DNA from: Clostridiales bacterium
GTDB taxonomy: Bacteria; Bacillota; Clostridia; Christensenellales; Aristaeellaceae
Direction: 5' to 3'
Assembly: GCA_015056085.1 (NCBI GenBank)
Contig: SVHA01000001.1
Span: 310,001 to 374,000, forward strand
Length of the DNA: 64,000 bases
Positions 26,928-33,474 of this stretch are shown piece after piece. The notes beneath the pieces are model-generated. The model had not been told where the DNA came from. It saw nothing but the letters and a program-made list of their open reading frames with translations, and did no database searches. A program made the translations under genes and the position numbers. Position 1 is the stretch's first letter, and each line of letters begins with the position of its first letter.

Positions 26928-27090
26928 AATGAAATCGCGGCTTCACCACGATGAAATCCTCGTTTCACTCGGATGAAATCTGCTTCGCAGATGAAATCAG
27001 ATCCACCCACCCGGCGTTGAGCCGGATTTCATCCACGCAAGGGATTTCTTCATCGAAGATGATTTCACCCATCCATAAGGGTGGATTTAG
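26928..27090. repeat. Array A: GATGAAATC short palindromic repeats
   Basis: GATGAAATC occurs at 26928 (AATGAAATC), 26950, 26972 and 26990, then inverted as GATTTCATC at 27025 and, less exactly, at 27043 and 27061. Between the copies are 9-26 base spacers, several self-complementary: ATCTGC-TTC-GCAGAT around 26978-26992, CCGGC/GCCGG (27011-27024), CACCC/GGGTG (27066-27083). Units switch orientation in the middle. 27091-27182 is AT-rich with no gene seen. Confidence 0.85.
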
Positions 27091-27182
27091 TTGAAAAAAC
27101 TACCAAACGGTGCATAAGTAGGGGTAAAAAACTTAATTTGATACATATAAATGTTCCGAGTTATTGTAATATACTATCCCGT

Positions 27183-28229
27183 TTATACTTTATCCCAAAC
27201 CGCTCTCAACACAGCATACAAAACATCACATTCAATGGCGTGCTTCTTTCGATAGTTCGGCGCTTTGCCCAAAACTTGCTTGAACGCACGCAAGGTTGCT
27301 TCCGGAATTTTATCGAAAATCGCATCACGCTCAAGCATATCAGCAAGAACTTCATATGTGCCGTTATGCTGCAATACCCAATCGGGTACTCCGGTGACTG
27401 CACCAAGCCAAAAAGCGAATTGGAAGTTGTAGGAGCTGTTTATGATACCAACGATCTGCTCCTCCGTCATTGGCGTTAGGGCTTGCCAATTATAATTGAA
27501 AGGTCCAACAAATCCACCGCCGAATTCAGACGGCTTTTTAAAGGTGATATATTCGTCAACATCTTTCATAATTTCGTAAGCTCGCTTGACTGCCGCCTTT
27601 GCGGTCGCTATATTATCCTCAGTTCGCCATCCCTGCGTAGCAGAAAGAACGCCAATATGGTTTGCACCCGGAAATTTAGCGTTCGGCTTATAGTAACGTT
27701 CATTCTTGCCCTTGATAGAAAAATCGTCAACCGAGTTATACTGCAAAACCGTCGAAAGATGTTCAAATGCGAGCGCCTGTTGCTCTGCGTAAATCGTAAT
27801 ATCCTCCGAAGCTTTCGCCATAGCGAGAATGTTGGCAACGATAGCGCGGTCGCCGCCGCGACCTTCTGCATCCAATGCCGCACCGCCGCGAAACCAATTC
27901 TTGTGTGCAGATGCGATTTCGGGTGTCAGCAATGCCGTGACCGCTTTTTGAATGGCAGGATGCCTTGCCTCAACGCCCAAGTTCAAAAGTCCGCTGATAT
28001 GACAATCCATACCGTCGATGCCGTGAAGCTCGTAACCAAACCACCCGTCAGCGTGTTGTGCTGACAAATGCTTTTTTACATTTGACTGAGCCAAAATTTC
28101 GTTTTGAAGTGTCACCATAAAAGGCTCGTCCATGTCAGCACCAAGCATATCTCGATGTACCAAATACCTAATACTCGGACAAGCGTTTTCGAGGAGGAAA
28201 TTTATTTTGTTTTGAAAGTTAAAACCCAT
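27183..28229 (-). CDS. Predicted alpha/alpha-toroid (prenyltransferase/terpene cyclase-like) protein
   Basis: 348-residue protein of unknown function. It is all-helical in appearance, with repeated helix pairs and motifs such as PSIRYLVHRDMLG and AQHADGWFGYELHG that resemble alpha/alpha-barrel proteins of the squalene-cyclase fold (S-x-R-Y-L-x-x-R-D-L, Q-x-x-D-G-G-W). No catalytic DxDD is visible, so activity is not implied. No signal peptide or membrane segment. ATG 28229 has AGAGGT upstream. Base composition is clearly more AT-rich than neighbours, and the gene sits alone between two palindromic repeat arrays next to tRNA-Leu: good signs of transfer. Confidence 0.75.
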   Translation of the reverse strand: MGFNFQNKINFLLENACPSIRYLVHRDMLGADMDEPFMVTLQNEILAQSNVKKHLSAQHADGWFGYELHGIDGMDCHISGLLNLGVEARHPAIQKAVTALLTPEIASAHKNWFRGGAALDAEGRGGDRAIVANILAMAKASEDITIYAEQQALAFEHLSTVLQYNSVDDFSIKGKNERYYKPNAKFPGANHIGVLSATQGWRTEDNIATAKAAVKRAYEIMKDVDEYITFKKPSEFGGGFVGPFNYNWQALTPMTEEQIVGIINSSYNFQFAFWLGAVTGVPDWVLQHNGTYEVLADMLERDAIFDKIPEATLRAFKQVLGKAPNYRKKHAIECDVLYAVLRAVWDKV

Positions 28230-28286
28230 ATTTACCTCTATTCGCATACTACTGTTTTTTCGCAATATTTTGATATCTTCACCTAT

Positions 28287-28315
28287 ATTATATCATGCTT
28301 GATAATAAGAATCAA
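28287..28315 (-). promoter_or_regulatory. Promoter of the toroid gene with inverted-repeat operator candidate
   Basis: TTGATT (28310-28315), 17-base spacer, TATAAT (28287-28292). CTTGAT/ATCAAG (28298-28316) is an inverted repeat spanning the -35 and spacer. The -35 abuts the repeat array that starts at 28313. Confidence 0.75.
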
Positions 28316-28456
28316 GGCGGAGTCTTGTATATCATCAGTCGCTTGCGACTGTATATCATCAACACGAAGTGTTGTATATCATCATTGCGGAGCGAAATAC
28401 ACCTTCGGTGATGATATACACGCTGACGCGTGATGATATACCATTGCTCCGCAATG
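28313..28456. repeat. Array B: GATGATATAC short palindromic repeats
   Basis: TGTATATCATCA at 28326, 28350 and 28373, then inverted TGATGATATACA at 28409 and TGATGATATACC at 28431. Each unit is flanked by a different small palindrome: CAAGGC-GGA-GTCTTG, GTCGC-TT-GCGAC, ACAC-GAA-GTGT, CACC-TTC-GGTG, CACGC-TGAC-GCGTG, CATTGC-TCC-GCAATG. Same design as array A with a related core (GATGAwAT). No coding sense. Confidence 0.9.
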
Positions 28457-28458
28457 CA

Positions 28459-28498
28459 TAAAAAAAGAAGTAACTTTTGGTAGACAAAAGTTACTTCT
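28459..28498 (-). terminator. Intrinsic terminator after tRNA-Leu
   Basis: Perfect 14-bp stem AGAAGTAACTTTTG/CAAAAGTTACTTCT, 5-base loop, seven T on the minus strand. Confidence 0.95.
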
Positions 28499-28502
28499 CT
28501 TT

Positions 28503-28587
28503 TGGTGCGGCAGACGGGACTTGAACCCGTACCCATTGCTGGACACGCCCCTCAAACGTGCGCGTATGCCGATTCCGCCACTGCCGC
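28503..28587 (-). tRNA. tRNA-Leu (anticodon GAG)
   Basis: Acceptor GCGGCAG/CTGCCGC, anticodon stem CACGT/GCGTG around TTGAGGG (anticodon GAG, reads CUC/CUU), long variable arm, T-loop GGTTCAAGTCC, encoded CCA (28503-28505). Confidence 0.96.
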
Positions 28588-28608: not shown

Positions 28609-28637
28609 ATTATATCATCATCCCGGAGGTTTGTCAA
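28609..28637 (-). promoter_or_regulatory. tRNA-Leu promoter
   Basis: TTGACA (28632-28637), 17-base spacer, TATAAT (28609-28614). The -10 segment GATGATGATATAATCC is close to the array B core GATGATATAC. Confidence 0.92.
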
Positions 28638-30126: not shown

Positions 30127-30897
30127 TTAAATTCCATACATCCGCATGGCGTTTTCCGTGGTAATGCGGGCAAGGTCTTCCAGCGGCATTTGCCGCAGGT
30201 CGGCAATCTTCTGCGCCACATGGCGGACATGGGTGGGCTCGTTGCGGCGGCCCCTGACGGGTTCCGGCGCAAGGTAGGGGCTGTCGGTTTCCACCAGCAG
30301 GCGGTCAAGGGGCACATTCAGGGCGGCTTCCTGGAGTTTCGGCGCCTTTTTGAAGGTCACAGGGCCGGCAAAACTGATGTAAAAGCCCAGTTTCAGGTAT
30401 TCCTTGGCAATCTCCCAGCTACCGGAGAAGCAGTGAATCACGCCGCCGGAAATCAGCCCCTTATTGGCCTTGAACAGCTCCAGCATCTCCTGATGGGCAT
30501 CACGGACGTGATACACCACCGGCAGGTTCAGCCGGGATGCCAGTTCCATCTGGGCAAGGCACACGTCCCGCTGAACATCCCGGGGAGACAGATCATAGTA
30601 AAAATCCAGACCGATCTCGCCAATGGCAACCACTCGCTCCCGGCGAGTCATTGCTTCCAGCGCCGGAATGTCTTCCGGGCGGAAGTCCTTCGCCTCGTGG
30701 GGATGAATGCCAACGGCGGCGTAGAAACCGGGGTGCTCCGCAGCAAAGCGGACGCAGTTTTCCGAGGAAGGCATATCGCTGCCGATGACGGCACAGCGGG
30801 TCACGCCGGCTTCCGCCATGCGCAGGAGTACTTCCTCACGATCGCCGTCAAAGCGGTCGCTGTCCACATGGGAGTGGGAATCAAACAGTTCAATCAT
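30127..30897 (-). CDS. tatD: TatD family metal-dependent hydrolase
   Basis: TIM-barrel DNase-like hydrolase of 256 residues. Metal ligands are all present: H-x-H in FDSHSHVD (8-10), Glu in GEIGLDFYY, His in VYHVRDAH, His in IHCFSGS, Asp in ETDSPYLAP. TatD proteins act as 3'-5' exonucleases or D-aminoacyl-tRNA-related hydrolases; the exact role is open. Its ATG overlaps the metG stop as ATGA, so translation is coupled and regulated by the metG T-box. Next to metG in most Firmicutes. Confidence 0.95.
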   Translation of the reverse strand: MIELFDSHSHVDSDRFDGDREEVLLRMAEAGVTRCAVIGSDMPSSENCVRFAAEHPGFYAAVGIHPHEAKDFRPEDIPALEAMTRRERVVAIGEIGLDFYYDLSPRDVQRDVCLAQMELASRLNLPVVYHVRDAHQEMLELFKANKGLISGGVIHCFSGSWEIAKEYLKLGFYISFAGPVTFKKAPKLQEAALNVPLDRLLVETDSPYLAPEPVRGRRNEPTHVRHVAQKIADLRQMPLEDLARITTENAMRMYGI

Positions 30898-32909
30898 CCG
30901 ATGATCGCGCCGTCCTCAACGCCCTCGCCCACGCTCATCAGGCGCAGATTGTCCTGATCGTCCACAGCGGAGAGAATCATGCCCTGGCTCTCGATGCCGG
31001 CGATCTTGCGGGGCGCCAGATTCGTCACTGCCACCACCTGCTTGCCCACGAGGGTTTCGGGCTCGTAATACTTGGCGATGCCGGAGAGGATGGTGCGCTC
31101 GCCGTCCTTGCCGAAGGACAGGCGGAACTGCAGGAGCTTGCTGCTCTTGGGCACCTTGACGCACTCCAGCACACGGGCCACCTGCATTTTCACCTTGCAG
31201 AAATCGCCGAAGTCGATCACTTCAGGGAATTCGGGCTCCTCGTGCTTCTTTTCTGCCTTCTTCTCTTCCTTCTTTTCAGGCTTCTTGTCTGCCTTCTTTT
31301 CGGGCTGGGCTGGCTTTTCCTCGGCGAGATAGAGGGCTTCCAGCTCCTTCTTCACGTCAATGCGGGGGAAGAGGGCCTCGCCCTTTTGCACCTTGGTGCC
31401 CGCAGGCAGCTGACCGAAAGTCTTGAGGGAATCCCAGGTCTTGAGAACTTCGTCCTTGACGCCCAGCTGGGCAAAGATGCGCTCGGGGGTGGTGGGCATG
31501 AAGGGGTAAATCAGCACGGCCACATAGCGCACGCACTCGGCAAGAGTCAGCAGCACGTTGGCCAGACGGTCCTTCTTTTCGGGGTCCTTACCCAGCACCC
31601 AGGGCTGGGTGAGGTCGATGTACTTGTTGCACTCGCCGATGACCTTCCAGATTTCCGCCAGAGCCTGGGAATACTGCAGCTTGTCCATCTGCGCCTCCAC
31701 CAAGGAAGGCAGGGCAGCGCAGTGCTCCTGCAGGGGGGTATCCACGGAGGGATCCACCGCATCGGTCCAGGCGGGCACATCGCCGCCGAAGTACTTCTCG
31801 ATCATCGCCACGGTGCGGCTGACCAGGTTGCCCAGATCGTTGGCCAGATCGGCATTCATGCGGGTGAGGAAGGCCTCGTTGGTGTAGTTGCCGTCAGAGC
31901 CGAAGGGCATCTCACGCATGAGGTAATAGCGCAGGGCGTCGGCGCCATAACGGGCGACGATGGGCTGGGGATACTGCACGTTGCCCTTGGACTTGGCCAT
32001 CTTGTCGCCGCCAAAGAGCAGCCAGCCATGGCCGAACACCTGCTTGGGCAGTTCCAGACCCAGAGCGTGGAGCATGATGGGCCAGTAGATGGTGTGGAAG
32101 CGGATGATTTCCTTGCCCACCAGATGCACATTGGCAGGCCAGTACTTCTTCAGCAGGCCGTCGTCCTCGGTACCATAGCCCAGGGCGGTGATGTAGTTGG
32201 ACAGAGCGTCAATCCACACATAGACCACGTGCTTTTCGTCAAAGTCCACCGGCACGCCCCACTTGAAGGAAGTGCGGCTCACGCACAGGTCCTGCAGGCC
32301 GGGACGGAGGAAGTTGTTGAGCATCTCGTTGGCACGGGCAGCAGGCTGAATGAAGTCAGGATGGGTCTCGATGTAATCGATGAGCCAGTCCTGATACTTG
32401 CTCATGCGGAAGAAGTAGCCCTCTTCCTTCATGGGCTTGCAGGGGCGGCCGCAGTCGGGGCAGACCTTCTCCCCGTTCTTCTCTGCCAGCTGAGAGGGCG
32501 TCCAGAAGGACTCGCAGGGCGTGCAGTACATACCTTCGTACTCGCTCTTGTAGATGTCGCCCTGCTCATAGAACTGGCGGAAGATCTTCTGCACGATCCT
32601 CTCGTGGCGCTCATCGGTGGTGCGGATGAAATCATCGTAGCGGATGTTCATCAGGTCCCACAGTTTCTTGGTTTCAGCGACGATTTCATCCACGAAGGCC
32701 TTGGGGGTCACGCCGGCTTCGGCGGCCTTTTCCTCGATCTTCTGGCCATGCTCATCAGTGCCGGTGAGGAAGTAGGCGTCATAGCCGGTGAGGCGCTTGA
32801 AGCGGGTCATGGTGTCCGCCGCCACGGTGGTATAGGTGTGGCCGATGTGCATATTGCCGCTGGGATAGTAAATCGGCGTGGTGATGTAGAAGGTCTGCTT
32901 GTTGCTCAT
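30894..32909 (-). CDS. metG: Methionyl-tRNA synthetase
   Basis: Class I aminoacyl-tRNA synthetase of 671 residues. HIGH motif at 21-24 (MHIGH), zinc knuckle CTPCESF...CPDCGRPC, KMSKS as DKMAKSKGN, anticodon domain, then a Lys/Glu-rich linker (KKADKKPEKKEEKK) and a C-terminal EMAPII-like tRNA-binding domain (FPEVIDFGDFCKVKMQVARV...SGIAKYY). Start ATG 32909 has GGAGG 7 bases upstream; the open frame before it is the T-box leader. Operon with tatD. Confidence 0.97.
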   Translation of the reverse strand: MSNKQTFYITTPIYYPSGNMHIGHTYTTVAADTMTRFKRLTGYDAYFLTGTDEHGQKIEEKAAEAGVTPKAFVDEIVAETKKLWDLMNIRYDDFIRTTDERHERIVQKIFRQFYEQGDIYKSEYEGMYCTPCESFWTPSQLAEKNGEKVCPDCGRPCKPMKEEGYFFRMSKYQDWLIDYIETHPDFIQPAARANEMLNNFLRPGLQDLCVSRTSFKWGVPVDFDEKHVVYVWIDALSNYITALGYGTEDDGLLKKYWPANVHLVGKEIIRFHTIYWPIMLHALGLELPKQVFGHGWLLFGGDKMAKSKGNVQYPQPIVARYGADALRYYLMREMPFGSDGNYTNEAFLTRMNADLANDLGNLVSRTVAMIEKYFGGDVPAWTDAVDPSVDTPLQEHCAALPSLVEAQMDKLQYSQALAEIWKVIGECNKYIDLTQPWVLGKDPEKKDRLANVLLTLAECVRYVAVLIYPFMPTTPERIFAQLGVKDEVLKTWDSLKTFGQLPAGTKVQKGEALFPRIDVKKELEALYLAEEKPAQPEKKADKKPEKKEEKKAEKKHEEPEFPEVIDFGDFCKVKMQVARVLECVKVPKSSKLLQFRLSFGKDGERTILSGIAKYYEPETLVGKQVVAVTNLAPRKIAGIESQGMILSAVDDQDNLRLMSVGEGVEDGAIIG

Positions 32910-32945
32910 GGAATATCCTCCTCCTGATGTTTCGGGGGGGAACAG

Positions 32946-33170
32946 AAAAAGCCTCCACCCCTTTTGTTGATAGGGGCGGAGACTGTATATCATCCGCGTT
33001 GCCACCCTGATTTTTCACTCATCATACGCATAACGGCGCGACCCGTTGCGGACTACTGGATTTCACCCGCAAAGCTCCGGAGCCATCTTCCCGTCCATTC
33101 CCCGGCTGCATCTCACCTTCCGCAGCTCTCTTGGCGCTTCCTGCACGGTACTCTTTCCATCAAAGCCTAT
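32946..33170 (-). promoter_or_regulatory. T-box leader of metG
   Basis: tRNA-sensing leader RNA. The T-box core GGGTGGCAACGCGG (32994-33007) is followed by a terminator with a 12-bp stem GTCTCCGCCCCT/AGGGGTGGAGGC and T-run (32946-32983). AGAGAG and GGTGAGA-like stem I motifs lie upstream; a candidate Met specifier ATG sits in GAATGGAC (33096-33098). Uncharged tRNA-Met should permit antitermination. Confidence 0.92.
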
Positions 33171-33176
33171 GGGGGT

Positions 33177-33238: not shown

Positions 33239-33474
33239 AAAAAAGAAGGCAGTTTCCTGCCTTCCGTAAGTTTTGACAACGAATGTCCCAAAGTGCCGAT
33301 GTGCGCCGTTTTTTCACCCGCTTTGTTAAGCAGGTAGGTGCCCTGCCGTTTGTCTCTGCCTTCCCCTGGCGTTATGATAACGGGGGCATGGCATCACAAA
33401 ACATGGACCCGGGCTCCTTTTTATGAGCTGTGGGTAAAAACAGGCGGACTGTCGTGAACCCCAGGACATTCCCT
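33239..33474 (-). ncRNA. ssrS: Probable 6S RNA
   Basis: A promoter with consensus TTGACA (33504-33509), 17-base spacer and TATAAT (33481-33486) and a terminator GAAGGCAG-GAAA-CTGCCTTC plus six T (33239-33264) bracket a region without a gene. The RNA ends pair (GAATGTCC at 33464-33471 with GGACATTC at 33281-33288), giving a rod of about 200 bases. Inside are TTTTTACCCACA, GGAGCCCGGGT and GGGCACCTACCT, which resemble Firmicutes 6S RNAs. 6S binds RNA polymerase holoenzyme. SRP RNA and tmRNA signatures are absent. Identification by pattern only. Confidence 0.62.

Follow-up and report, generated by a model that had tools for sequence, protein, structure and literature searches.

The 3' ends of tRNA and tmRNA genes are classical integration targets, and integron attC sites are known as recombination substrates in the form of a folded single strand. 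A different kind of element, the intervening sequence (IVS) of 23S rRNA, sits in rRNA helices and is cut out by RNase III, and the account that describes this treats what the PF05635/S23 proteins do, and where rRNA intervening sequences come from, as unknown or unclear (PMC4990558). One further account describes a short palindrome behind tRNA genes, but only those of Methanopyrus (PMC5217627).

Here we analyze a 64,000-nucleotide stretch of a Clostridiales bacterium genome (GCA_015056085.1, contig SVHA01000001.1, positions 310,001 to 374,000), hereafter the window, in which a mirrored array of short cores and hairpins lies behind a tRNA-Leu terminator, outside any rRNA helix. With 23S rRNA IVSs, this array and its counterparts share the tie of a selfish element to a structural RNA gene, a long complementary bounding stem, and, at part of the loci, a PF05635 four-helix-bundle ORF; unlike IVSs, they stand behind tRNA and tmRNA terminators, hold core-hairpin arrays, and mostly carry other genes. 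With integron cassettes, they share sequence-variable, structure-conserved palindromic sites between genes and a presumed folded single-stranded substrate, but no integrase was found in their flanks, every cassette comes with a promoter, and an RNA gene serves as the anchor; an attC site forms one long hairpin, the array many short ones strung together in mirror order. tRNA genomic islands, including tycheposons, likewise have a tRNA 3' end as anchor, variable cargo, and repeated tRNA ends at some loci; the arrays differ in that no tyrosine recombinase was found in their flanks, in the size of the units observed here (0.3-1.4 kb), and in their hairpins. REP/BIME, BOX, ERIC, and MITE sequences are similar in being short, dispersed intergenic palindromes with mirrored units, from which the arrays differ in their anchoring at RNA genes, terminator and promoter ends, two-partner strand, and parallel core families. 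CRISPR arrays also combine short repeats with differing spacers, but the spacers described here are self-complementary and recur in slots, and the repeats are 10-11 nt long and invert mid-array. A literature search, incomplete and with subscription journals largely outside it, found no description of these arrays, and no known kind that we compared has the same plan.

Results

Anatomy of the array in the window

The array (28310-28456) contains five exact copies of the core TGATGATATAC, of which the first three read on the minus strand and the last two on the plus strand, and occupies the gap between the terminator of a tRNA-Leu(gag) gene and a promoter-like pair on the minus strand. Its parts, together with the flanking gene features, are as follows.

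28503-28587, minus: tRNA-Leu(gag), the anchor RNA gene, 3' end toward the array (ARAGORN, Rfam)
28460-28503, minus: terminator hairpin, apical TTTTGTCTACCAAAA, with a run of seven T (from sequence)
28442-28456, minus: hp1, the first hairpin, CATTGCGGAGCAATG; a copy in the centre is a second pairing partner for its 5' strand, S
28431-28441, plus: core TGATGATATAC, exact match (GATGATATAC part 28432-28441)
28420-28431, no strand assigned: hairpin spacer ACGCTGACGCGT, loop TGAC (GTCA on the opposite strand)
28409-28419, plus: core TGATGATATAC, exact match (GATGATATAC part 28410-28419)
28383-28409, minus: centre, with small hairpin ACCGAAGGT, truncated core, and second S partner GCTCCGCAATG (28383-28393)
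28374-28384, minus: core TGATGATATAC, exact match (GATGATATAC part 28374-28383)
28361-28373, no strand assigned: hairpin spacer, AACACTTCGTGTT on the minus strand; the same spacer occurs in genome G034
28351-28361, minus: core TGATGATATAC, exact match (GATGATATAC part 28351-28360)
28337-28350, no strand assigned: hairpin spacer, AGTCGCAAGCGACT on the minus strand
28327-28337, minus: core TGATGATATAC, exact match (GATGATATAC part 28327-28336)
28313-28326, minus: outer gene-side hairpin AAGACTCCGCCTTG, running into the -35
28287-28315, minus: promoter-like TTGATT (28310-28315), 17 nt, TATAAT (28287-28292), joined to the array end
27183-28229, minus: cargo gene, ATG at 28229, 348 aa, with a longer TTG start at 28265, in a low-GC stretch
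26928-27093, minus: second array of the same plan, core GATGAAATC/GATTTCATC (family F2), on the far side of the cargo gene

A first-pass annotation, made from the letters of the window, had described three cores followed by two inverted ones with self-complementary spacers and loops of 2-4 nt, all lying between the -35 of the neighboring gene and the tRNA-Leu terminator. Both borders could be located and the arrangement is as it was described: self-complementarity around a 2-4-nt loop is seen in the spacers AGTCGCTTGCGACT, AACACGAAGTGTT, and ACGCTGACGCGT as well as in the outer hairpins CATTGCTCCGCAATG and CAAGGCGGAGTCTTG (one G-T pair). The same annotation gave the core 12 bases; five copies are indeed present, but the length common to all of them is 11 nt. 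Its view that the array is too regular for chance agrees with our counts. In the 2,075,594-base genome, TGATGATATAC has no exact copy outside the array, and the reversed control pattern has none at all. When up to two mismatches are allowed, the window contains 34 matches to it, including the 5 exact ones, where shuffles average 7.1 and reach 16 at most. Together with the spacer stems and their covariation (below), these exact-copy counts and mismatch shuffles reject a chance repeat.

Nothing in Rfam scores above the gathering threshold over the window array or over the arrays of 18 other loci, and identity with an Rfam RNA is therefore rejected for the arrays searched. Elsewhere in the window, Rfam identifies a T-box leader (32969-33172, minus), which sits at the start of a long minus-strand ORF (30894-33005), and a 6S RNA (33281-33470, minus), both ordinary features. 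A near-copy of the core, TGATGATATAA (28610-28620, minus), overlaps the -10 of the likely tRNA-Leu promoter and is probably a coincidence.

Conservation of the hairpins

A terminal stem of at least 4 bp is present in 179 of the 254 distinct spacers, compared with a mean of 1.7 and a maximum of 6 in shuffles. The stems are maintained by covariation: among 65 distinct 13-nt spacers, pairing is found at the five stem positions in 61, 61, 59, 62, and 58 spacers, with at most four pair types, where the shuffle maxima are 49, 41, 32, 33, and 56, respectively. The stems are kept while the letters change, as the first-pass annotation had proposed. Its wording that structure rather than sequence is held is right as to structure, but the core, the loop type, and many palindromes are conserved as well; palindromes often recur verbatim, and CGCAACAAGTTGCG occupies one slot in 17 of 52 elements. 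With 179 of 254 distinct spacers being hairpins, many of them recurring, a CRISPR array is rejected, and the earlier statement that no CRISPR definition fits holds.

The loop type is T..C on the core strand, that is, G..A on the opposite strand. Of 101 triloops, 49 are such GNA loops (shuffle maximum 23), and of 66 tetraloops, 27 are GNNA loops (shuffle maximum 14), while the reverse-sense loop is seen in 3 triloops and 1 tetraloop and another 15 tetraloops are C..G. Twelve of the 27 GNNA tetraloops also satisfy the RNA GNRA rule. GNA and GNNA loops are described as forming unusually stable DNA mini-hairpins (PMC4686876), and the preference for them therefore leans towards single-stranded DNA as the relevant form.

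A strand with two partners

The 5' strand of hp1, S, pairs with its neighbor and also with the centre. In the window, the local stem is 6 bp and the long-range stem 11 bp, a length that none of 200 shuffles reaches. Across elements, hp1 and the centre covary: over 84 mirrored elements, the run of matching bases between the two averages 8.5 nt and is 7 nt or longer in 66, but when partners are exchanged between elements, the mean run is 5.6 and the maximum 6.3. S has two partners in the exemplars of F1, F1', F2, F3, F4, F5, F8, and F10, with a different pairing ranked top in L315 of F5; no overlapping partners of S were found in those of F7 and F9. A script detected a two-partner S behind 15 of 52 tRNA flanks in genomes G449 and G454 (5 of 28 and 10 of 24), one of which (L277) does not look array-like, and behind none of 15 tRNA flanks of the window's genus.

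Folding of the 163-nt strand was compared with that of dinucleotide shuffles, giving z-scores of -6.7 as RNA and -5.3 as DNA (-5.2 for the plus strand as DNA). The minimum-energy DNA fold contains the long-range stem; the DNA centroid and the RNA minimum are a rod of paired cores. Such arm-to-arm pairing of cores was tested at two variable positions across 52 F1 elements, with no compensatory change at either, and core-to-core pairing as the conserved fold is unsupported by covariation, though both of those predicted folds contain it.

RNA-gene anchoring and the two ends of the arrays

Following the direction of the tRNA, one most often meets a terminator, hp1, three core-hairpin units, the centre, three such units in inverted orientation, and a promoter, and 55 of 125 clusters have exactly three plus three cores. 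Clustering near tRNA genes, which the first-pass annotation had suggested checking, is found: in 54 of 122 clusters, including that of the window, ARAGORN places a tRNA no more than 150 nt from the array. In all 54, the 3' end of the tRNA points toward the array, mostly from 51-65 nt away, and 25 anticodons are represented. The other 68 clusters have no called tRNA within 150 nt. Inspected by eye, L006, L112, and L137, with no called tRNA nearby, have tRNA 3' fragments ahead of their arrays. A tmRNA precedes the F1 array of L113, and another precedes a different array together with a PF05635 gene in L368. No RNA gene was found at the arrays of L021, L027, L046, and L054, among others.

Terminators near-identical to that of the window stand ahead of arrays in other genomes, and 16 same-genus relatives have differing sequences after this tRNA-Leu. 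An apical TTTGTCTACC(G)ACAAA or a close variant occurs in the terminators before several array families (window 28460-28503, L237, L260, L262, L269, and L293); other arrays are preceded by plain tetraloop terminators. At the opposite end, 87 elements extend far enough to look for a promoter-like pair after the array; 48 have one on the same strand, and 0 of the 87 have one on the opposite strand. Two further patterns were seen. Tandem core-hairpin units in one orientation, up to nine of them, occur without a called tRNA nearby in L038, L040, L049, L057, and L116, and a stretch like TATGTAAGAGTTCGAATTCATACGCAAAA...GTAGCCCATAG, resembling a T-arm, recurs after the arrays of L016, L065, L108, and L122.

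Further core families

About ten further core sequences share the plan of the array, seven of them checked by script; the family names F1-F11 were coined in this analysis. In the flanks of 69 called tRNA genes of G449 and G454 (not every tRNA, as some near contig ends were omitted), arrays of the same look are common and have, by eye, the cores GATGAAATC, GTGAAATA, GTGATGC, TGATATA, and GATTACATAC; five core types, again by eye, occur side by side in G454. PF05635 loci added, again by eye, the cores ATGAAGC, GTGAAGT, AATGATGTT, GTGTTAT, and AGTGATGT. The F2 array of the window has a long-range stem of 8 bp, reached by 5 of 200 shuffles, and in L016, L122, and L262 an F2 array follows a tRNA gene.

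Spread among genomes

A pattern with fixed spacing missed even the window array because core spacing varies, and two cores with a gap of 8-22 nt were searched for instead. This core pair was found in at least 120 stretches of public genomes; among the 80 matches listed, 77 are Clostridia by title, and many come from the guts of deer, goat, sheep, cattle, and buffalo. The three matches outside Clostridia (L026, L037, and L085) may be due to chance. Besides the window's own genome, the pair is present in 3 of 39 genomes of relatives (4 of 40 with its own) and in 5 of 390 genomes of the class (6 of 391 with its own), and 12 genomes chosen as carriers have 1 to 20 matches each. The first-pass annotation had named two findings that would make the array a local accident, a core found here alone and spacers that lack self-complementarity elsewhere; we found neither, and the array is no local accident, with its core pair widespread, mainly in Clostridia.

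Of 24 viral stretches, one (L168) shows an array, the other 23 looking by eye like coding sequence or unrelated repeats, and the array has no match among plasmid and phage records; a phage origin is rejected on these grounds. Thirteen loci that duplicate a place or genome already represented were excluded (L001-L005, L010, L012-L014, L017, and L144-L146), some counts excluding only part of them, and cluster and locus counts may still contain doubles between the two genome collections.

Repeated tRNA ends and the search for an integrase

Thirteen loci, picked for a more distant tRNA or the presence of two arrays, were inspected by eye for a second copy of the tRNA 3' end. About 17-34 nt of it is repeated in ten (L119, L110, L102, L042, L028, L018, L016, L087, L101, and L081) and not repeated in L108, L032, and L122. 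By script, a second copy was found in 5 of 37 elements (4 loci), plus a weak one in L103, compared with 1 of 37 in the reversed control. In L119, L137, and L112, perfect tRNA-end copies directly enclose an array unit (280, 335, and 798 nt, respectively), but most of the repeats bracket a different structured unit, which we call unit X. Unit X (L112:50-1100, L102, L101, L168, L279, and others) comprises a terminator, an antisense T-arm-like GGGATTCGAAC, a hairpin such as AAAACAGTCC..GGACTGTTTT, and the repeated tRNA 3' end, and looks like a separate small tRNA-end element.

No second tRNA-Leu end was found in the window, nor a copy of the tRNA-Trp end behind the insertion in G034, and at PF05635 loci, a 3'-end copy lies downstream of only 2 of 33 tRNA or tmRNA genes, leaving 31 of 33 with none. 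A tyrosine-recombinase profile built from 11 integrases of rich genomes matched none of 836 flank ORFs in loci of up to 8 kb, and no clustered cores were seen at 19 integrase loci from five rich genomes. An integrase as a recurrent neighbor of the arrays was thus not found in the flank ORFs. We consider a tyrosine integrase possible for unit X; for the arrays, with the repeats missing in G034, in the window, and at 31 of 33 genes and with 0 of 836 ORFs matching, we do not claim one.

Association with PF05635 genes

PF05635, the family of the 23S rRNA intervening-sequence protein, is enriched behind the arrays, providing 9 of 68 first ORFs downstream of F1 arrays, among which no other family occurs more than twice. 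Seven of nine genomes contain 34 PF05635 genes in all; the window's genome (G000) and G448 contain none. Among 30 PF05635 loci of rich genomes, 16 have a same-strand tRNA within 518 nt upstream, and 13 of these 16 have, by eye, a hairpin array, the remaining three (L294, L295, and L309) showing low-complexity repeats with no clear hairpin array. PF05635 genes behind low-complexity direct repeats (such as GCAAAATGCAAAGTGCAAAATG) and not hairpin arrays were also noted in L291, L292, L297, L298, L302, and L367.

As a control, PF05635 was searched for across the class and found in 111 of 391 genomes. Among the best 30 PF05635 loci of the class, only L368 has the RNA gene, array, and PF05635 gene in order, and the link therefore concerns part of PF05635; a universal link is rejected on this control. 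Of the same 30 loci, L369 resembles an array locus but has no RNA gene, and L358 is itself part of a 23S rRNA region, located inside the rRNA, with no such array in the stretch examined.

Cargo genes and occupied and empty sites

The product of the cargo gene in the window matches no Pfam or NCBIfam family, and its predicted structure is too poor for use (mean pLDDT 36). Homologues occur in 2 of 59 other genomes, at different places, and the gene was likely acquired horizontally. The tRNA-Leu(gag) region was taken from 16 of 17 same-genus genomes (G001 was not included), and the array is absent from all 16 flanks, each of up to 330 nt (78 nt in L199). A neighbor gene, which we take to be DUF368-like, is retained in 13 of the 16 regions. 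An encoded CCA was considered as a mark of insertion and dropped, as 16 of 26 tRNAs inspected in the window's genome encode it; it is absent at tRNA-Leu in 13 of the 16 relatives.

The clearest occupied and empty pair is found at tRNA-Trp. In G034, this gene is followed by an F1 joint, two cargo ORFs, an F8-like array, and then a gene starting MVHIGNDWDE, an order of parts that resembles that of the window. In the congener G455, tRNA-Trp and the MVHIGNDWDE gene are about 60 nt apart, with a different terminator; in a third congener, G456, the array is absent and the neighbors differ. Across whole flanks, the recurrent ORF groups are array-overlapping ORFs (33 loci), ABC-transporter-like ORFs (14), and HTH-like ORFs (8), the latter two being common genes named by eye.

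Discussion

We propose, with a probability of roughly one half, that a mobile gene-cassette system resides behind tRNA and tmRNA ends in gut Clostridia and that the array, read as folded DNA, forms its structured joint, with PF05635 proteins as the likely partner. Such a joint would consist of the terminator closing the RNA gene, the mirrored array, and the promoter starting the cassette gene, with the array itself made up of the switch strand S, hairpin and core units, the second partner of S, and inverted units. The original passenger was probably a PF05635 four-helix-bundle protein, replaced elsewhere by other genes, as would be the case in the window. When single-stranded, the DNA would fold, alternating between a state with S paired locally in hp1 and one with S paired at long range, and the hairpins and cores would be read, presumably by an enzyme, as a folded recombination site in the way that attC sites are. 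The joint together with its gene could then move to other RNA-gene ends. In favor of this proposal are the spread mainly in Clostridia, the fixed orientation toward RNA-gene 3' ends, the covarying hairpins with their GNA/GNNA loops, the two partners of S, the empty sites in relatives, and the PF05635 enrichment. Against it are the 836 flank ORFs with no tyrosine-recombinase match, the arm cores with no compensatory change, the tRNA-end copies missing behind the G034 insertion, in the window, and at 31 of 33 genes of the PF05635 loci, the exemplars of F7 and F9, the 68 of 122 clusters with no called tRNA within 150 nt, the restriction of the PF05635 link to part of that family, and the failure of any plasmid or phage record to match.

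Other explanations have to be weighed against this proposal. If the arrays were instead the attP-side arms (arm-type sites and spacers) of tyrosine-integrase islands that use tRNA 3' ends as attB and have lost their integrase, their position would be the expected one, tRNA and tmRNA 3' ends being classical targets, and the tRNA ends repeated by eye in 10 of the 13 picked loci, like the array units between perfect copies in L119, L137, and L112, would find a ready explanation. However, none of the 836 flank ORFs is integrase-like and the 19 integrase loci lack clustered cores; most repeats bracket unit X, none follows the G034 insertion, and 31 of 33 genes have none; and covarying hairpins are unexpected for arm-type sites. 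We regard lost-integrase islands as unlikely. A comparably low probability goes to a cis-acting RNA switch or transcription insulator, in which read-through RNA would take one of two states and so set the expression of the next gene. The terminator before and the promoter-like pair after the array on one strand (48 of 87 versus 0 of 87), the two competing partners of S, and the RNA fold z-score of -6.7 are all in its favor, yet the array should be little transcribed because it lies behind a terminator and ahead of a promoter. Nor would regulation readily explain why the first downstream genes share no function except PF05635 (9 of 68), why the presence of the array is patchy between congeners, or why 27 tetraloops fit GNNA when only 12 of them also fit GNRA.

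Palindromic repeats of the REP, BOX, or MITE type, spread by chance and collecting at terminators with no system of their own, would be a passive account. A moderate copy number (1 to 20 core pairs in the 12 chosen genomes) and the one-orientation tandem arrays without a called tRNA nearby (L038, L040, L049, and L057) are what it would lead one to expect; the same order of parts in several core families, the fixed side of the RNA gene, the promoter at one end, and the PF05635 enrichment are not, and we consider it improbable.

The reading as a folded joint of RNA-gene-anchored cassettes could be carried further, to a new kind of mobile element. We put this forward tentatively, as a possibility we would not bet on: cassettes anchored at RNA genes and marked by a folded DNA code of mirrored, covarying GNA/GNNA hairpins, short cores, and a two-state switch strand, with about ten core types, would be served by PF05635 four-helix-bundle proteins and would make up a broader group that takes in the 23S rRNA intervening sequences. 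The arrays add to the structure-conserved DNA elements one of a plan absent from the literature searched. The PF05635 genes behind structured arrays offer many natural test cases, in which the protein is predicted to bind the folded array. Such a system could also explain why small foreign genes gather at the tRNA flanks of gut Clostridia without a nearby integrase.
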